From NCBI GenBank assembly GCA_023512255.1, contig JAILZY010000042.1:1-30288 (forward strand): a stretch of DNA of 30,288 bases, given 5' to 3'. Below, one piece after another: positions 9,861 to 30,288 of the stretch. The notes under the pieces are model-generated. The model made no database searches. It saw only the letters and a program-made list of their open reading frames with translations, and was not told the origin of the DNA. A program made the translations under genes and the position numbers. The stretch is from a bacterium (GTDB taxonomy: Bacteria; SZUA-182; DTGQ01). Position 1 is the stretch's first letter; every line of letters begins with the position of its first letter.

Positions 9861-9939
9861 AGCCTATTATCTTTTTATATTGTCGGCCTTTAAATTCATT
9901 ATCTTCACCTTTTTATTATATGCCATCCTTACAGAATAA

Positions 9940-10044
9940 CTACACTTTTGCAGAAATTTCTTATCGCCTTGAAATCCTTGAAAGTTACCTCTAATAGCAA
10001 ATCCAATAAAATCAAGGCCTTGGAGAAAAAGTGCAAAAGCATAG
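9940..10044 (-). repeat. Dispersed inverted-repeat element, family 3, copy A
   Basis: About 105 bp with imperfect terminal inverted repeats: CTACACTTTTGCAG at the left, and CTATGCTTTTGCAC on the opposite strand at the right. On the minus strand it aligns along most of its length with 22358-22467. Shared blocks include CTTTTTCTCC, TGGATTTG, AACTTTCAA and ATTTCTGCAAAAGTG. The size, terminal repeats and dispersal suggest a MITE-like or hairpin repeat without coding capacity. Confidence 0.8.
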
Positions 10045-10258
10045 AGAATAATAAGAGAAATACCCCCTCATTAGGTCAGAAAATCTAGCTGTCTTTTTCC
10101 TGAGCTCGCCTTATTCTATCATTTACTATATAAAAACAATATTTTTATACTATCATTAAATTTTAAATATACAAAAATTTTATAGTAATTCTAAATATAT
10201 AAAATTAAAATCATTTAATCTCTTTTGGAGATTATATTTAGATAATTTAATTTTTAGC

Positions 10259-10360: not shown

Positions 10361-10478
10361 CTCGCTCTTATATATCAGACACCATAAACCCTATATCAGA
10401 ACAACTATAAACCCTCGAAGAGGCTTAGCTCTTATTAGGGTTATGTCTCTTAAATGGTAACTAATAAATAAGAGCGAA
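10361..10478 (+). repeat. Dispersed inverted-repeat element, family 1, copy A
   Basis: About 118 bp. The ends TCGCTCTTAT (10362-10371) and ATAAGAGCGA (10468-10477) are a perfect 10-bp inverted repeat. A second inner pair, CATAAACCCT and AGGGTTATG, allows a long hairpin. The first 72 nt recur at 30211-30288 with few differences, so this is a mobile or dispersed unit, not a local hairpin. It ends 23 nt before the cas6 ATG and may affect its transcription. Confidence 0.85.
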
Positions 10479-10501: not shown

Positions 10502-11284
10502 ATGAGAATAACTGTCTCTCTATCGGCCGAAAAAAACGTAGTTCTCCCCTTTGAGCACAATCAACTTATCCAGGGAATGATTTACCATAATCTTCCCCCG
10601 GAAAGTGCAACTAGGCTTCATCAGGAAGGATTTCTGCATCAGAAAAGAAGATTTAAGCTTTTTACCTTTTCTCGGATTCTCAGCAGCCCTCTAGTAGATA
10701 ATTACGCCAAACAATTTATCTTTTCGAAAACTATCAAGTTTGTCATAGCCTCTCCTATTGGCTGGTTTATGCAGGATCTGGCCGAGCATCTGATCAGGCA
10801 GGAGTTTGTGATCCTTGGGCAGAATAAACTTCGGCCAGAGTCTATCAATATTCATCACCTGCCTAGAAGTTTTCCTGAAAAGATAAAGATTACCATGTTA
10901 TCCCCCATAACGGTCTACAGTACCATGCAAAGAGGAGATGGTCGGAAAAAAACCTATTATTTCTCTCCCTTCGAGCCGGAGTTTTCAGAGCAGATCGAGG
11001 CTAACATCAAGAAAAAGTTCGAAATTTTGCATCTTGAAAAATGTGATTATTCCCTATCGATAACTCCTCTTTTTTCTGGAAATAAAAATGAGCGGATCCT
11101 GATATATAAAGACTTTCTTATTAAAGCCTGGGATGGAATGTATGAGCTTAAGGGCTCGCCTGAGCTAATAGCCATAGCTTACAATACTGGTCTTGGGGCT
11201 AAGAATTCACAAGGGTTTGGCTGCTTTGAATTGGCTCCTGATCAGGAGAGTAATCAAAAGAAGAATGAGGATCAGTGGAGATGA
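10502..11284 (+). CDS. cas6: CRISPR endoribonuclease Cas6
   Basis: Metal-independent RNase that cuts CRISPR precursor RNA in each repeat and normally stays on the crRNA 3' end. 260 aa, normal size. It begins MRITVSLSAEKN and shows the ferredoxin-like pattern of the family. The C-terminal glycine-rich loop is GLGAKNSQGFGCFE (about 233-246). A candidate catalytic His is not obvious: His24, His40 and His46 are possible, but I cannot assign one. It is the first gene of a tightly coupled operon, and its TGA overlaps the cas8b ATG by 4 nt. Its presence implies that processed crRNAs are, or were, made here. Confidence 0.92.
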   Translation: MRITVSLSAEKNVVLPFEHNQLIQGMIYHNLPPESATRLHQEGFLHQKRRFKLFTFSRILSSPLVDNYAKQFIFSKTIKFVIASPIGWFMQDLAEHLIRQEFVILGQNKLRPESINIHHLPRSFPEKIKITMLSPITVYSTMQRGDGRKKTYYFSPFEPEFSEQIEANIKKKFEILHLEKCDYSLSITPLFSGNKNERILIYKDFLIKAWDGMYELKGSPELIAIAYNTGLGAKNSQGFGCFELAPDQESNQKKNEDQWR

Positions 11285-13308
11285 TCGGGGCTTTAAAGAA
11301 AATTGGAGATGCGGTCTTACAGGAGGCGAGGGAAGCCAGCTTTCTGGATAATCTAATAGCACCGCTGAATATCAAGGGCAAAAACAACAAGCCATTGTAT
11401 ATTGGAATCGTAGAATTCAACCTTGATGATGATCTGCTCACCATTTCCTTTGAGCCCATGAATGAGGAAACACCTAGAAAGTTTCTCTGGATCGGTAATG
11501 TGGAAACTGCCAATAGCCCGCAGGACCGACTGACCACTAACAATGTGGACTATCTATTTTCTCAGACTATTCCTAATCTGGGAAGATTTTTGCCGGATGG
11601 TAGTCTGAAAGATGATCTCCTGAAGATTAGGGATAGATTTTTCTATGACCTAGGTAAACAAAAGGGGGCTGACAAACGGTACCGATTTATTCTTAATCTC
11701 AGTAAGCTTACTGGCTATAAGCTTGCTAGCTATTGGAAAGATTACCCAGGATCGGACTGGGAGGATGGGGCCAGGGAATATCCGTTGAATGGCAGGCTGA
11801 TGCTCAAGACGATTTCCCAGCATTTTTGGGGATGGGTTAGGGAGAGTCAAGGGCTGTCCCGCAAAGAGGTCTCTCTATTTACCGTCAAGATTAATGGAGC
11901 AAATGTCCGGGAATTTGAAGACTATATAACCTATCTTCTGTGGAAAAAACAGGAAGGGGCCTTCAGACGAACTCGGCTGTCTGTCTGTCATATCTGTGGA
12001 CAGCAAGAGCAGGTATCATCAGATACTACCAAACTCGAGTTCAGCTATTATATAACCGATAAGATCGGATTCTCTTCAGAATTGGGCGGAGAGCGCAATT
12101 TTTATAAGAATCTTTCATTCTGCCGTCGATGCTATCATTCTCTGATTGTTAGTGAGAGTTTTGTAAAGAATTTTCTCTCTACCCGCCTGGCTAATCAAAA
12201 TGTCTATCTGATTCCCGAGTTTCTCTTGCCGTTTCGTGGATCTCTTCTGAAATGGGCTCAGTGGCTGCGAGCCTCTTTTGAGGCGACCATCAGACCGAAT
12301 GGTCATAAAAACTTTCTCAATCAGTCTGCTGCTTTTTGGGAACTGGCTGCTAGCCCGGAATATCCAGGTGATCCTTTGATCAACATGCTGTTTTGGCAAA
12401 AATCACAGGCCGAATTCAAGGTTTTGAAGCTTATCGAAGATGTATCTTTCCGGCGGCTTTTGACCATGCAAAAGATATCGGAGGATATTTCCACTGTGGG
12501 CAGGAGGTTTTTTGGAGGGAAGAATACCCGGTGGGAGCTTTGGCTGAATAATATCTACTACCTCTTTCCTGTAAGGGCTGATAAGAAAAGAAACCCTTAT
12601 GAATTCAAAAAAATTTTAGACTTTTACGACGCTTTTTTCACTGGCAGAAAAATAGAATACACCTTTTTAATTCAGCAGTTTATACAACTGGCCAGGGTTT
12701 GTCGCCAGGATCAGGGAGAGCAGTTTAATCTAGGAAGAGATGGAAACGGCGATCAGACACTGGTCATTTCGATGCTGAAGGCTAACCTTTTATTACTCTA
12801 TCTGAGGAGAATAGGGATGTTGAAAGGGGGGTGGATGGAAATGGAAGGGCTTAAATTTCTAGAAGAGTTTCCCGAGGAGGTCCGTGAGTTTGCTAGGGAG
12901 ATGAAATACAGTGTTGAGCAGGTGGCGCTTTTCGGACTAGGAATTTTGATGGGGGAGGTAGGCAGCGCTCAATTTAATGCCAGGATCAAAAATAAACCAA
13001 TTTTGGAAAAATTAAACTTTCAGGGTATGAGAGCCGAAAGGCTGATCGGATTCAGCAACGAGATCTTTGCCAGATTGAGGCAATATCAGAGATTGTCCTT
13101 TGAAAATGAGAGAATGTTTGCCGGGGTAAAAAAATTGCTCGATGAGCGGATTAATGCCTGGCCCTTAAACTCTCAGCAGAATGTTTTCTACATTTTATCT
13201 GGTTATGCTTATCGAACCAATAAAATCATATCTTCAGCCAAAAATTTTGAGATTAAAAATTTTGAGATTAATGGAGAGTCGGTTAAGGAAGAGGTTTTTC
13301 AGCCATGA
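11281..13308 (+). CDS. cas8b: Type I-B Cascade large subunit Cas8b (Csh1/TM1802-like)
   Basis: Large subunit of the DNA-targeting Cascade complex, expected to recognise the PAM. 675 aa. Visible features are the N-terminal IGALKKIGDAVLQ and a zinc-finger-like set of cysteines: C236/C239 in VCHICGQ and C281/C284 in SFCRRCYHS. A helix-rich C-terminal third follows. I chose ATG 11281 because it forms a 4-nt ATGA overlap with the cas6 stop. GTG 11275 is an alternative that adds two residues. The 3' end overlaps the cas7 start in the same way. The Csh1 assignment rests on the neighbours and the cysteine layout more than on a strong motif. A strong in-frame internal start lies at 12817. Confidence 0.88.
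   Translation: MIGALKKIGDAVLQEAREASFLDNLIAPLNIKGKNNKPLYIGIVEFNLDDDLLTISFEPMNEETPRKFLWIGNVETANSPQDRLTTNNVDYLFSQTIPNLGRFLPDGSLKDDLLKIRDRFFYDLGKQKGADKRYRFILNLSKLTGYKLASYWKDYPGSDWEDGAREYPLNGRLMLKTISQHFWGWVRESQGLSRKEVSLFTVKINGANVREFEDYITYLLWKKQEGAFRRTRLSVCHICGQQEQVSSDTTKLEFSYYITDKIGFSSELGGERNFYKNLSFCRRCYHSLIVSESFVKNFLSTRLANQNVYLIPEFLLPFRGSLLKWAQWLRASFEATIRPNGHKNFLNQSAAFWELAASPEYPGDPLINMLFWQKSQAEFKVLKLIEDVSFRRLLTMQKISEDISTVGRRFFGGKNTRWELWLNNIYYLFPVRADKKRNPYEFKKILDFYDAFFTGRKIEYTFLIQQFIQLARVCRQDQGEQFNLGRDGNGDQTLVISMLKANLLLLYLRRIGMLKGGWMEMEGLKFLEEFPEEVREFAREMKYSVEQVALFGLGILMGEVGSAQFNARIKNKPILEKLNFQGMRAERLIGFSNEIFARLRQYQRLSFENERMFAGVKKLLDERINAWPLNSQQNVFYILSGYAYRTNKIISSAKNFEIKNFEINGESVKEEVFQP
12817..13308 (+). 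CDS. cas11b: Probable Cas11b small subunit, internal start within cas8b
   Basis: ATG 12817 is in frame with cas8b (codon 513) and is preceded by GAGGAG (12804-12809) with an ideal 7-nt gap. The resulting 163-aa product (MLKGGWMEMEGLKF to KEEVFQP) is predicted by eye to be mostly alpha-helical and has the usual size of a Cas11 small subunit. Independent translation of Cas11 from the 3' part of the large-subunit gene is established for types I-B, I-C and I-D. That this start is used here is inference from the Shine-Dalgarno and frame alone. Confidence 0.55.
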   Translation: MLKGGWMEMEGLKFLEEFPEEVREFAREMKYSVEQVALFGLGILMGEVGSAQFNARIKNKPILEKLNFQGMRAERLIGFSNEIFARLRQYQRLSFENERMFAGVKKLLDERINAWPLNSQQNVFYILSGYAYRTNKIISSAKNFEIKNFEINGESVKEEVFQP

Positions 13309-14267
13309 CCACGGGCAGTATAACTAAATCGATAACGCACAACAGTGATATTTTATTTATCTATGATGCCAGAGAAACAAATCCCAATGGGGATCCTGAC
13401 GATGAAAACAGACCGCGAATGGACTATGAAACTTCTCGAAATTTGGTAAGCGATGTCAGACTGAAGAGATATATCAGGGATTATTTGCAGGACTATAAGG
13501 GGCAGGATATCTTTGTGGCCAAGGTTGATAATCGAGCGCTCAATGTTACCGAAAGGCTAGAGTCACTCTTTTCTGCTTATCGAGAGGATTACACTCAAGA
13601 GCTCAATTTGACTAAGCTTGAGAAAAAGCATATTGACTGGCTTCTTTCACGGCTGATCGATGTCCGCTTTTTCGGGGCCACGATGCCCATCAAGGGCAAG
13701 GAGGGAGCAGGAGCCTCGGCTACCCTGACCGGGCCGATTCAGTTCAACTGGGGATATTCCTTGAATAAGGTGGAACTTTTGGAGTCAAGCTCTATCACCT
13801 CACATTTTAGTTCAGATACCGAGAAGATTCAAGGCGCCATTGGCAAGGACTGGCGGCTCTATTACTCACTGGTTGCCTTTCATGGGATTATCAGTGCCAA
13901 AAGGGCCGAGAGAACATTTTTGAACGACGATGATCTGGCGCTTTTCGATGAATCGATGATTAAGGCCATTCCCTTGGAGGCAACTACCCGAAGCAAGATC
14001 GGCCAAACCCCAAGGCTGTATATCCGCATAGAGTATAATGATAGTTATACCTTTCTCGGAGATTTGAGAGAGTGGGTCAGTCTGGACAAAACAGAAGGAT
14101 TAAGAGATATCAGTGACTTTACCCTTGATCTTGGCCAGCTAAGAGCTTTGGTGAACAAAGAGATCGACAGGATTGCCCAAATTATATTTTGGCAGCACCC
14201 TGATCTTAAAATTCTCGGATGGAGAGAGGATGATCACTTTCAGGGCAAATTGATAGTTTTAGACTAA
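13305..14267 (+). CDS. cas7: Type I-B Cascade backbone Cas7 (Csh2)
   Basis: Backbone subunit that polymerises along the crRNA spacer in Cascade. 320 aa, usual size. The N-terminal family signature reads ARETNPNGDPDDENRPRMD (about 22-40), followed by LVSDVRLKRYIRDYL. RFFGATMPIKG and LTGPIQFNWGYS in the middle are also typical of Csh2/Csd2 proteins, as is the glycine-containing centre. The ATG overlaps the cas8b stop (ATGA, 13305-13308), so the two are translationally coupled. The next gene, cas5, is separated by an unusual 250-nt repeat-rich gap. Confidence 0.93.
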   Translation: MTTGSITKSITHNSDILFIYDARETNPNGDPDDENRPRMDYETSRNLVSDVRLKRYIRDYLQDYKGQDIFVAKVDNRALNVTERLESLFSAYREDYTQELNLTKLEKKHIDWLLSRLIDVRFFGATMPIKGKEGAGASATLTGPIQFNWGYSLNKVELLESSSITSHFSSDTEKIQGAIGKDWRLYYSLVAFHGIISAKRAERTFLNDDDLALFDESMIKAIPLEATTRSKIGQTPRLYIRIEYNDSYTFLGDLREWVSLDKTEGLRDISDFTLDLGQLRALVNKEIDRIAQIIFWQHPDLKILGWREDDHFQGKLIVLD

Positions 14268-14519
14268 GCCAAAATAAATGGGCCGCGCCGGATGGACAAG
14301 CTGAGGCAAATAGGGTGCAAATATGTGTTGGGTTTGAGGCAAAGATTAGGGGGTAGGGTGAGAAAAGAGGGGTTAGGCAAGATTAAGGGCAGGTTGGCAA
14401 GGGGAGCAGATTAGCAAGTGGGCAGGTTGGCCAAGAGATGGGCTAGGTTTAAGTAAATAGAGGGCGCCAGAATTGGGCAGATGAGACAGGCAGATTGAGG
14501 CAGGCAGATTGAGGCAATG
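14268..14519 (+). repeat. Purine-rich degenerate repeat spacer between cas7 and cas5
   Basis: 252 nt with no gene, strongly G/A-rich on the + strand. It is made of drifting words such as GGCAGATTGAG, GGGCAGGTTGGC and GCAAGATTA. The clearest tandem units (CAGGCAGATTGAGG repeated) abut the cas5 start at 14490-14516. In most cas operons cas7 and cas5 abut or overlap, so an expanded repeat here is unusual and resembles the treZ-treY spacer in composition. Confidence 0.65.
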
Positions 14520-15296
14520 ATGGCAGGCAGTTTACTGGTCTTTGATCTTATCGGCAAATTAGCCCATTTTCGAAAATTTTATACTAACTCATCCTCTCTG
14601 ACCTATGACTTTCCTCCGCCAACCGCACTATGCGGTATGATCGCAGCTATCTTGGGAATTGAGCGAGATGTCTATTATGATCTCCTTTCGCCTGAGCGGA
14701 TACGGATGTCGGTCTCTATTCGTCAGCCTAGTCGTAAGGTTATGCAGACCATCAACTATATTCGGACAAATAAGAATGATTTTTCAAACCCTTACCATAT
14801 TCTGTCGAAATTCCTCAGCGGAGAGAGAGTGCCGTACCAGGTGCCATTGGAAGTTTTGCTTCCCCTGGAAGAGGGAGGCAGTCTCAGATATCGGGTCTAT
14901 TTCCAGCACACTGACGAGGCGATTATGAGGAATTTGAAGAACCGGATGAGCGCGGGGGCCAGTGTCTATCCTCTATACTTTGGAATATCAGAGTTTATCG
15001 CTGATTTTCGCTATCAGGGAGAGCGGGAGTATGAGCTGAGACAGGGCGTGGCTGAGCGGATTTCATCAGCAGTTAATGAAGAAAAGCTCAGTGAGCGGGG
15101 AATCAATATTTTAGCCTCTCAGGGCTGTCAATTCGTGAAAGAGCTTATGCCGGCTGCTTTCAGAGAGGGGCGAGAGCTTCGAAAAGTGTCGAGTTTTATC
15201 TATGAGCGATACGGTCGGCTGTTTGTGGCCGATCTCAGGGAATATGCGGTCGTATCATCAACTGAGGGCCCGGATGAGCAGGTTGTGTTTTTGTAG
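14520..15296 (+). CDS. cas5: Type I-B Cascade subunit Cas5
   Basis: Cascade subunit that caps the crRNA 5' handle. About 258 aa. The N-terminal family pattern is VFDLIGKLAHFRKFYTNSSS, then YDFPPPTALCGMIAAILG (about 28-45), the usual Cas5 PPrTaltGmiaa-like motif. RQPSRKVMQTINY follows. Two adjacent ATGs exist (14517 and 14520); the second leaves a better gap to GAGG (14511-14514), and either may be used. It is the last recognisable cas gene. In a complete I-B locus cas3 would follow, but here an inverted-repeat element begins 7 nt after the stop. Confidence 0.9.
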   Translation: MAGSLLVFDLIGKLAHFRKFYTNSSSLTYDFPPPTALCGMIAAILGIERDVYYDLLSPERIRMSVSIRQPSRKVMQTINYIRTNKNDFSNPYHILSKFLSGERVPYQVPLEVLLPLEEGGSLRYRVYFQHTDEAIMRNLKNRMSAGASVYPLYFGISEFIADFRYQGEREYELRQGVAERISSAVNEEKLSERGINILASQGCQFVKELMPAAFREGRELRKVSSFIYERYGRLFVADLREYAVVSSTEGPDEQVVFL

Positions 15297-15428: not shown

Positions 15429-15702
15429 TATTTGAGACTGCAATATCTGGCAGCTCCAAAATATCGGGATGGCTTCAGTAGTTTCTCTTTGTTTGAACCT
15501 AGGAGGAATTGAAATTAAGGTTGGAAGAGTGAAGAGTGCTTGTAAGGCTCTTAGAAGAGTGCTTACACAAGGCTCTTACATGATTTATGTAGCATACCTA
15601 GAGAGGTTTAGGTAGCATACCTAGAGAGAAATAAGATTCTTATTGCATACCTTGAGGTAGGAATTGAAATGATGAGGATAAGATGAGAATATATCAGCTT
15701 GT

Positions 15703-15935: not shown

Positions 15936-16007
15936 TGTTGAGCTGCCAGAGTATACCTGCTCGAGGAATTGAAATGAGATTCAGGGGGTGATTCCCGTAA
16001 GAAATTT

Positions 16008-16079: not shown

Positions 16080-16403
16080 GTCTACCTATAAGGAATGAAG
16101 ATGTGCTCGATGAATTCTATATCGAAAGTCAACCCGCTTACGGTGTTGCCCCAGGGCGATTGCATGAGAAGGTGATTGCATGGGAAATCGGCGCATTCCC
16201 AGGCATGTTCCCGGGTGATTGCATGAGAAAGAAATTGGTTAGCCGATAACATCAAGATGCAATAATATCAAGATGTTAGATAGTTATCTAAAATTAATGA
16301 TTAATCCAAATAAGCATTTGATATATTTGGATATTGATAGATTTTCACGCGATTGCCCTGAGTGTCGCCCTATATGCGTGCAATTGGCCTAAAATCAATC
16401 TGT

Positions 16404-18290: not shown

Positions 18291-18981
18291 ACATCTTATC
18301 CTCCTGCACTGAGCAGCCCTCTAATAATTGCATTTGTCCATACGATGTGTGGCAGTATCGGGTGATGATGCTGTCACAAAGTTAATGTGGGTGGGTTAGG
18401 AGGTCTTTTCGCTAATAAAGTGCGCAAGCTTTGGCGGCACAAGGTCCGCCCCTATAATTGGTTGGGTAATTTAATTACCCTACAATTGATTGGGTAATTG
18501 GATCTGCTTTCGCACTTGGCGATAGAACCACTAAGTACCCTGAGTTATTAGAAATATTATAAGTTAGTTACACTATTATATATCAAATAAATCATTTTGT
18601 CACATTTTTTATTTGTAAGGAAGGAAAAGATTTTAGTTGTAAGGAAGAAAAAGAACAAGGATGGACAAATGGTCCTGATTTTTTATCAGTATTTAATTTA
18701 TTTGACTTTGGGTAATGATTTGGTTATTATATATTTGTATAGTAGTAGTCTATGCTTAAGGTTATACTATGCTTTATTTTAGCCCTTCACATAAGAGTTG
18801 GGAAAGAGAAATAGACTTTTTCAGTATATCAATATATAATATATTATTCAATAATGTTTAGGCTCAGTTACTGTTTGGTTACTGTTAGGTAAGAGTAGTA
18901 AGAGAATAGAATATTTTTAACCCGATATTCCTTTTTCGGTAAGGAAGAGGAATCGGATAAAAGGATGGTTAGTGAGTGGGT
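18291..18981. other. Intergenic region, AT-rich, no gene seen
   Basis: About 690 nt upstream of the kinase. It contains the inverted-repeat element at 18395-18535. A near-duplicate (TTGTAAGGAAGGAAAAG and TTGTAAGGAAGAAAAAG) lies around 18613-18655. A CCGATATTCCT/AGGAATCGG hairpin is at about 18922-18956. A short open frame at 18597-18782 has no ribosome-binding site or protein character. Confidence 0.5.
18395..18535 (+). repeat. Dispersed inverted-repeat element, family 2, copy B
   Basis: It matches 15303-15428: TCTTTTCGCTAATAAAGTGC, GGCGGCACAAGGTCCGC and CTACAATTGAT are shared. The right end reads, inverted, GGTTCTATCGCCAAGTGCG, matching its own left end imperfectly. The centre carries an extra internal duplication (ATTGGTTGGGTAAT and ATTGATTGGGTAAT), explaining its greater length. 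Confidence 0.85.
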
Positions 18982-20100: not shown

Positions 20101-21240
20101 ATGGGAAACGATCATTTTAACGATAATTTTCTTGTTAAAGAGTTTGAAACTCTAACGGGTAATCTAAATTATATTAGTAATGATCTGTTAAAGGCAAAAT
20201 GGTACTTTCTGGCGACACTTGCGGCGTTAGGATTAGGTTATAAATATATTTTAGAATTAAATAACAATATTTTTTCTTCTGAACAGTTTCCTTTTCTATT
20301 GGTTATAATTTTTATTGCAGGAGATGTTGTCTTATGGCTAATTGGTGAGTATATTTTGTCACATGGGTTTTTGTTTAGGTATATACAATCAAAATTAGCT
20401 GAAATAGAAAAAGCTGAAATAGAACATTATCTTTATTATAAAAATATAATTATAGATAGTAGATTTAAAGAACTCGTAAAAGATCCAAGAAAAAGGGATA
20501 ATTTCCTTTTCAAAGACAAAGACGGTAAAAAAGAATCGAAAGACGGTAAAAAAGAATCGAAAGACGGTGAAAAAGAATCGAAAGACGTTAACCAAGAAAG
20601 ATTGTTTTTTGATTTTTTTATTCCTGATCAGTTTATACCATTGTATTGGGCATCTATTTGGGGAATATTAATAAATGGCTTAAGTGCATATATTGTGTAC
20701 AAAATATTATATAAATATGACAATTATAAAATTATTTTACCACTAATTATTTTTATAAGTTTATTGTTTATATCAAAGCTATGGGATTACCACCTTTATA
20801 AACTCAATAAGTTTGTTGAAGAGTTTTGCGACTTTAAAATCTTTTTTGATGAAAATAAAAATGAAAGTATTTTTCGTTTCCCTCATATTATTCTCGGCAA
20901 GAAAGTTCGTTTGGTATTATTTGTATTGGCAGTATTATTAGTATTTGCTATGCTTTTGTGCTTTTTCTCCGAATCCTTGATTTTTTTAATGGATTGGCTA
21001 TTAGAGATAATTAATTTACCTTTTATTGCTGTAGCACTTATACTTATATTATTGTTTTGGCGAGTTGTTCTTGGACTTTCGATTCATTTTGTTCGCGACT
21101 TTGTTCCAATAATAAAGTGGGATGAATTGAAAGATTGGGCTCCTTATATAGACAATAATAATGAATTAGTGCTAAATTGTGGTCGGCCTTGGCTAAAAAA
21201 AATTTGTTGGTCTTTATGGCTGTTGTTCTTTTTACCATAA
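20101..21240 (+). CDS. AT-rich multi-pass membrane protein of unknown function
   Basis: 379 aa with about seven hydrophobic segments (roughly 34-50, 63-83, 178-200, 210-227, 270-298, 303-328 and 366-379). A soluble, charged loop (about 95-170) contains three 7-residue KDGKKES repeats encoded by a 21-bp tandem repeat. AGAGGGATAG precedes the ATG. Base composition is far more AT-rich than the neighbouring trehalose, kinase or GH13 genes, suggesting foreign origin. Residues about 283-303 are encoded by a segment matching the family 3 repeat elements found elsewhere in the window. I recognise no family. It sits next to a truncated gene and an orphan regulator, consistent with an accessory island. 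Confidence 0.7.
   Translation: MGNDHFNDNFLVKEFETLTGNLNYISNDLLKAKWYFLATLAALGLGYKYILELNNNIFSSEQFPFLLVIIFIAGDVVLWLIGEYILSHGFLFRYIQSKLAEIEKAEIEHYLYYKNIIIDSRFKELVKDPRKRDNFLFKDKDGKKESKDGKKESKDGEKESKDVNQERLFFDFFIPDQFIPLYWASIWGILINGLSAYIVYKILYKYDNYKIILPLIIFISLLFISKLWDYHLYKLNKFVEEFCDFKIFFDENKNESIFRFPHIILGKKVRLVLFVLAVLLVFAMLLCFFSESLIFLMDWLLEIINLPFIAVALILILLFWRVVLGLSIHFVRDFVPIIKWDELKDWAPYIDNNNELVLNCGRPWLKKICWSLWLLFFLP
20518..20587 (+). repeat. 21-bp coding tandem repeat (KDGKKES x3)
   Basis: The unit AAAGACGGTAAAAAAGAATC plus G is at 20518-20538, 20539-20559 and 20560-20580 (one G variant in the third), with a partial fourth to 20587. Near-identity shows recent expansion. The unit length keeps the reading frame. 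Confidence 0.95.
20948..21010 (+). repeat. Partial family 3 repeat element inside a coding sequence (copy C)
   Basis: From CTATGCTTTTGTGCTTTTTC through GGCTATTAGAGATAA the segment aligns with the first about 60 nt of the family 3 elements at 9940-10044 (minus strand) and 22358-22467. It shares CTATGCTTTTG, CTTTTTCTCC, CCTTGATTTT and CTATTAGAG, with one 3-nt insertion. The second half of the element is missing. It encodes part of a hydrophobic segment of the surrounding protein. Confidence 0.7.
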
Positions 21241-22247: not shown

Positions 22248-22547
22248 TCTTCGGCTATGAGCTGCTCTGGCCGCAGGGTCTGAAATGGCATTTAGAGGGA
22301 TGAGAATTTAGAGTGATGAGATATTATTCAGCAGATTCACTCAAGGTCAATATTTGACTATACTTTTGCGCTTTTTCTCCGAACCTTCAATTTTACTGGA
22401 TTTGTTATTAAAAGATAACTTTCAACAAGTTCCGTGCATGGAGAGATTTCTGCAAAAGTGCAGTATCTGAATGAAGGTAGTTAATATCTGAATGAAGAGG
22501 CCTCCTTGTGGGATCAACATATTTTTCAAGCGTATAGTTTTGAGCGA
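22248..22547. other. Intergenic region upstream of tRNA-Gln
   Basis: 300 nt, mostly the family 3 repeat element (22358-22467). A TATAGT (22533-22538) ends 9 nt before the tRNA and could be its -10 box; I see no matching -35. Confidence 0.4.
22358..22467 (+). repeat. Dispersed inverted-repeat element, family 3, copy B
   Basis: About 110 bp. The left end CTATACTTTTGCGC and right end GCAAAAGTGCAG are inverted copies. It aligns with the minus strand of 9940-10044 over nearly its full length, including CTTTTTCTCC, TTTTACTGGATTTG, AACTTTCAA and ATTTCTGCAAAAGTG. Confidence 0.85.
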
Positions 22548-30210: not shown

Positions 30211-30288
30211 TTCGCTCTTATATATTAGACACCATAAACCCTCAAAGTATATCAGAACAACTATAAACCCTCGAAGGGGCTTAGCTCT
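30211..30288 (+). repeat. Dispersed inverted-repeat element, family 1, copy B (cut by window end)
   Basis: TTCGCTCTTATATATTAGAC through GGCTTAGCTCT matches 10361-10432 with a few substitutions and a 6-nt insertion that duplicates the inner CATAAACCCTCAAAG-type word. The right half lies outside the window. Here it is upstream of the cohesin-like/dockerin gene but in the opposite orientation to that gene. Confidence 0.85.

Follow-up and report, generated by a model that had tools for sequence, protein, structure and literature searches.

The stretch of DNA analysed here (the window, 30,288 bases) is one entire contig from an assembly of 172 contigs, and carries on its + strand a four-gene type I-B Cascade operon in the order cas6b, cas8b, cas7b, cas5b. 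cas6b (10502..11284) and cas5b (14517..15296) were assigned by family models, and cas7b (Csh2; 13305..14267) by TIGR02590. The cas8b gene that these I-B neighbours adjoin (11281..13308; 675 aa, Csh1/TM1802 family) is itself of type I-B, scoring 373 bits against PF09484 (cut-off 25) and 210 bits against TIGR02591 (cut-off 104); its first start is the ATG at 11281, a GTG at 11275 being possible too, and its stop codon lies at 13306-13308. An earlier note on this DNA held that the operon has no separate small-subunit gene, and this is upheld: there is no candidate reading frame within 10502-15296, and in the gap between cas7b and cas5b, which contains no small-subunit-like frame, the longest + strand open frame is of 48 codons. 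The absence of cas3 and adaptation genes from the locus was also borne out, neither cas3 nor cas1/2 being seen on the 30,288-base contig.

The same note proposed that a Cas11 small subunit is translated separately from within cas8b, beginning at codon 513. The elements of this site can be read directly from the DNA: GAGGAG at 12804-12809, a 7-nt spacer and an ATG at 12817-12819, in the cas8b frame (12804..12819 in all, + strand), from which the product would be 163 aa long and end at the cas8b stop. A pattern of this kind is unremarkable as a product of chance. When the window is shuffled with its dinucleotides preserved, 25 of 100 shuffles contain one or more copies of GAGGAG-N7-ATG; and the pairing of the codon 513 site with the anti-Shine-Dalgarno (anti-SD) sequence, -9.2 kcal/mol, ranks fifth among the 118 ATGs lying internally and in frame in 17 of the window's genes, close to that of sites in a subtilase gene and a glycosidase gene. 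The two strongest of the 118 are cas8b codons 521 (-14.9) and 519 (-11.2). The anti-SD of the window's genome, whose assembly is without a 16S gene, was taken from the other species of the genus, where the 3' end of 16S rRNA, GGATCACCTCCTTT, has the usual sequence.

For comparison we assembled about 80 Cas8b homologues from whole-genome searches together with a scan of genome contigs guided by an alignment, 69 remaining after dereplication; the contig scan produced 53 loci with an alignment as query and none with a single protein. Mis-extracted loci (L007, L035) and fragments (L084, L086) were left out. Identity ranges from 71%, in the one congeneric species that the search covered (the sister species), down to 20-30%, in records labelled Spirochaetes, Nitrospira, Clostridia, Caldiserica, Poribacteria, archaea and others. 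Anti-SD pairing was profiled at 631 cas8b columns in 47 close homologues, and in the wider set of 69. Start codons were examined in 60 dereplicated homologues aligned at column 521, with expectations drawn from each gene's own codon use, and SD strength was set against 2000 synonymous shuffles in which the protein was held fixed and no best candidate start was picked. The homologue counts share ancestry and are not to be read as independent events.

Conservation did not favour codon 513. ATG occupies this column in just 4 of 79 homologues, the remainder having mostly ATT, CTT, TTA and the like; mean anti-SD pairing in the 47 close homologues is -2.9 kcal/mol, the background of the gene, with start codons in 17% (ATG in 6%); and with the protein fixed the observed pairing of -1.96 (synonymous null, -1.79) is reached in 482 of 2000 shuffles. 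The sister species retains the ATG, but CTGGAGAGG replaces CTGAGGAG. The note had named a lack of conservation in close homologues as grounds for refutation, and for codon 513 that is what the comparison shows. The argument that the textbook quality of this site reflects selection is thus unsupported, its SD being no stronger than synonymous expectation, and the site would be at most a secondary, non-conserved start.

Eight codons (24 nt) downstream, at codon 521 (ATG, 12841..12843), the result is the opposite. This is the strongest SD column of the 631 in the 47 close homologues (mean dG -11.2 vs -2.5, z -5.9), approached in strength only by its immediate neighbours, and 94% of these homologues have ATG, GTG or TTG there; in the wider set of 69 its SD is matched only by that of cas8b's own start. 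In the window the SD region, AAAGGGGGGTGG (12823..12834, + strand), has a dG of -14.9, the best of the 118 internal ATGs. Its codons 515-521 (12823-12843) read AAA GGG GGG TGG ATG GAA ATG, and those of the sister species AAG GGG GAA TGG AGG AAA ATG; corresponding stretches elsewhere are AAG GGA GGT GAA AAA ATG (L021), GAA GGA GGT GAA TTT ATG (L028) and AAA GGA GGT AAA GGA AAC ATG (L020). The window's SD has a run of G (GGGGGG) where GGAGG is expected, part of the pairing being G-U, and a few homologues (e.g. L013, L088-L090) are without an SD at this column. The ATG at codon 519 (12835..12837) is an alternative start, with an SD spacing of about 2-3 nt and AGG in its place in the sister.

Among the 60 dereplicated homologues column 521 is ATG in 38, TTG in 13 and GTG in 4 (92% together), and 56 of the 60 have Met, Leu or Val at this position. 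Leucine here is encoded by TTG in 13 of 13 cases, although those genes use TTG for 9-25% of their leucines, and valine by GTG in 4 of 5: 17 of 18 in all, against 3.7 expected (P 3e-12). The choice of Leu codon is a matter of indifference to the Cas8b protein and not to an initiating ribosome. The SD, too, exceeds what the protein dictates: with the peptide fixed, observed pairing is -10.0 against a null of -7.5 (sd 0.27), reached by none of 2000 shuffles, whereas control columns along cas8b give z values of mean -0.2 and sd 1.2, the lowest being -2.9. It is moreover built from differing peptides (KGG, MEV, EEE, KKE) at the same place in different clades, which together with the interchange of ATG, GTG and TTG argues for repeated independent maintenance despite the shared ancestry. 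A conserved in-frame SD and start codon in excess of synonymous expectation are thus found at codon 521 and not at codon 513.

The loci in which TTG is the conserved putative Cas11b start are L018, L053, L056, L057, L059, L060, L062-L066, L076 and L082; their lineages include Desulfofundulus, Ammonifex, Caldatribacterium, Caldanaerobacter and others. For annotation and heterologous expression they serve as a practical caution.

Accessibility of the mRNA was tried as a marker of the internal start and does not distinguish the site: the region at codon 521 is predicted not to be open (mean unpaired 0.29, vs 0.41 at random cas8b sites), and predicted accessibility there in the homologues showed no trend either way. 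Synonymous divergence from the sister (dS) dips at codons 480-509 (12718-12807), just 5' of the internal start, to 0.4-0.7 against about 1.5 gene-wide; the dip does not coincide with the start site, and it is weak evidence given that synonymous sites are nearly saturated.

The fold of the predicted product agrees with its assignment as a small subunit. AlphaFold2, given 41 homologues, models residues 521-675 as a helical bundle (mean pLDDT 89.8) whose core is all-helical and whose C-terminal tail is of low confidence, as the earlier note would have expected of Cas11. The seven best VIA-align matches to this 155-aa model are all type I-C Cas8c C-termini or separate Cas11c proteins (Z 6.3-7.6, 97-102 residues, 3.1-3.9 A; unrelated matches begin at Z 4.8); the best, 8dex_J, aligns over 101 residues at 3.2 A with Z 7.6, a value that is middling for helical bundles. 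Foldseek alone found no significant match to the 155-aa model (best E 2.6). A model of full-length Cas8b (pLDDT 83.9) has a helix at 490-510, an interdomain linker at 511-525 and then the bundle; it matched nine Cas8c chains at E < 1e-3 and ten I-C Cas8c entries at Z 8.1-12.8, with weaker matches to Cas8 of I-B CAST and I-B Cascade. Thus the full-length model, and VIA with the C-terminal one, point to Cas8c/Cas11c. Searching the solved structures by sequence profile, with either the C-terminal region or the whole protein as query, returned only spurious leucine-rich-repeat and other weak matches. Both candidate starts fall in the linker, so the fold by itself cannot choose between them; conservation does.

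Taken together, conservation and modelled fold make it very probable that cas8b yields a 155-aa Cas11b (12841..13308, + strand), common to the Cas8b C-terminus, by internal in-frame initiation at codon 521. Of the original proposal, then, separate translation of Cas11 from cas8b stands, on conservation, codon-level selection and fold, while its position moves from codon 513 to codon 521. In the mechanism we envisage, an internal ribosome-binding site at 12823-12834 of the cas8b mRNA would recruit ribosomes to the ATG at 12841, independent in-frame initiation there producing Cas11b alongside full-length Cas8b with the C-terminal sequence common to both. Cas8b would be initiated at 11281 by way of a moderate SD (-7.1) and Cas11b by way of the strong one (-14.9), a difference consistent with Cas11 being required in greater amounts than Cas8. 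By analogy with solved I-B Cascade, the additional Cas11b copies would lie along its belly, next to the C-terminal domain of Cas8b, and keep the non-target strand in place. We infer each of these steps: initiation, stoichiometry and incorporation into Cascade, as well as the present role of a Cascade without Cas3.

That Cas11 is translated independently from the large-subunit gene in type I-B, as the note stated, is already known (PMC11899642, PMC11096372). In Haloferax volcanii production of Cas11b by internal translation of cas8b has been proven by mutation (PMC11899642); a solved I-B Cascade, that of Synechocystis, contains one Cas8b and three Cas11b (PMC11096372); and internal Cas11 translation in bacterial I-B, I-C and I-D systems is attributed to McBride et al. 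2020 in PMC11899642. The window resembles the Haloferax and Synechocystis systems in having no separate small-subunit gene, a 3' in-frame start and a shared helical C-terminal domain. It differs from them in that the case there is experimental and here is made from comparative sequence and predicted fold, and in that its operon is without cas3 and its array degenerate. The type I-B1 system of Thermotoga maritima also has a PF09484 (Cas_TM1802) gene, as a control search showed, with Cas11 inside cas8b1 (PMC13199841), and its C-terminal product, at 15.1 kDa, is similar in size to the window's (predicted ~18 kDa); it stands apart in that its internal start is silent in E. coli, where Cas11 therefore had to be provided as a gene of its own (PMC13199841), so a conserved position is no guarantee of strength. 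The type I-C Cas8c/Cas11c proteins (PDB 8dex, 7kha, 8dfs) provide the best fold match to both the C-terminal domain and full-length Cas8b, although sequence identity is about 10% and the subtype is I-C rather than I-B. Very probably the window is a further instance of the known I-B arrangement, with its start placed at codon 521.

Other readings were weighed against this one. That Cas11b is instead made as the 163-aa product of ATG 12817, or from both starts, is improbable: the perfect 6-nt GAGGAG at good spacing, an mRNA predicted to be locally more open, the ATG retained in the sister with a GGAG nearby, and a linker that holds both starts and a fold that permits either all speak for it, but the site is not conserved beyond the sister, its SD is that of the background, and a stronger, conserved site lies 24 nt downstream. 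We consider it less probable still, if by little, that there is no separate Cas11 and the codon 521 site is a leftover, in a Cascade that is decaying or uses the Cas8b C-terminus alone. The array is indeed degenerate, cas3 is not beside the operon and no Cas3 exceeds the cut-off genome-wide, and in the sister SD1 has weakened to AAGGGGGAA; yet a GGAGG lies closer to the sister's ATG, both species retain the start codon, and the window's SD is strong. Decay is also at odds with the state of the genes: neither species has an interrupted frame in any of the four cas genes, which are 71-82% identical, and cas8b dN/dS against the sister is 0.12 overall and about 0.04 towards the C-terminus, at nearly saturated synonymous sites.

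Least credible, and very nearly negligible, is a protein-level explanation in which Cas8b needs a KGG-xx-Met linker and the SD is a by-product. The peptide L-K/R-G-G is itself conserved within the clade, but a requirement for the peptide would not account for Met, Leu and Val alternating as ATG, TTG and GTG, nor for an SD above synonymous expectation, nor for its encoding at the same place by M-E-V, E-E-E and K-K-E in other clades. Codon 521 is accordingly the start position to be tested. The pairing of start-codon synonym bias with SD strength at one aligned column separates real internal Cas11 starts from chance, and should be of use in reconstituting I-B Cascades, since the complex is spoiled when the Cas11 start is overlooked or put in the wrong place.

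The setting of this Cascade is unusual among its relatives. A cas3-like gene lies downstream of the Cascade genes in 47 of 53 related loci, several of the others being short contigs, whereas the operons of the window and its sister are both without an adjoining cas3. In the window's genome (a 96.6% complete assembly) no Cas3 exceeded the cut-off, and a complete, interference-competent I-B system, with cas3 and an intact array, was not found, though the unassembled part could contain a cas3 and arrays with other repeats may exist; its Cas1 genes are on contigs other than this one, and one of them sits next to an apparent type I-E cluster, as judged by gene order. The sister does possess Cas3 genes, which are located away from the operon's contig. 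With intact cas genes and a dN/dS of about 0.12, and with neither cas3 nor a good array, Cascade appears on this evidence to be kept under purifying selection at a locus that by itself can neither cut nor learn, which raises the question of what purpose a Cascade serves without cutting.

A candidate answer comes from the array. Downstream of cas5b are four degenerate I-B CRISPR repeats (15497-15515, 15645-15670, 15951-15975 and 16080-16100, + strand); no better copy of the repeat was found elsewhere in the window's genome, the single other match having three mismatches. The sister's array is better kept, with four repeats, one of them perfect over 19 nt, and two spacers are identical between window and sister over their first 10-11 nt. 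The best match of the shared spacer TAAGGTTGGAA in each locus is immediately upstream of the promoter of a neighbouring sensor-kinase gene. In the sister this match is perfect over 13 nt, beside the kinase promoter, with a TTA PAM. Positions 6 and 12 are unpaired in type I complexes. The window's match, TAAGGAAGGAAAAG, has a TTG PAM and mismatches at 6, 7 and 12, one paired mismatch being allowed; it falls within 18612-18653, on the upstream side of the kinase promoter (18575-18603), and a similar copy recurs at 18640.

This arrangement recalls CreA, in which guides with degenerate repeats steer Cascade to repress promoters, cas3 not being needed, and pairing is required only at positions 1-5 and 7-11 (PMC8501985). 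Degenerate repeats are common to both, and the putative guide, like CreA, would have no use for cas3; predicted pairing at the CreA seed positions is complete in the sister and nearly so in the window (one seed mismatch, at position 7); and, unlike CreA, the candidate target here is a sensor-kinase promoter. The matches may be due to chance: 3 of 100 shuffled spacers find an equally good match within the sister locus, and the window's looser pattern has five other exact matches genome-wide; the sister and window matches are not independent, spacer and promoter both being homologous. A CreA-like regulatory role for Cascade is possible. The fuller proposal, that the genus has kept a Cas3-less I-B Cascade with its internal Cas11 as a regulator of transcription rather than for immunity, the degenerate mini-array seed conserved in both species pairing with the PAS/histidine-kinase promoter, is speculative and on balance unlikely. 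Autoregulation through the cas6 promoter was considered and set aside, the relic spacers having no match there at the 9-nt seed level.

Some other features of the contig may be recorded. Near-identical repeats (97-98%) lie at 10362-10432, upstream of cas6b, and at 30212-30288, the contig end, and an inverted arm is present at 10454-10478; they may represent a small mobile element at which the assembly was interrupted. Three related stretches of about 50-110 nt, 75-89% alike, are found at 9939-10054, 20938-21010 and 22358-22464, the first inverted relative to the others, and 1014-1940 encodes a secreted-looking protein with many repeats of the GLYGMGG/GLYGLGG type.
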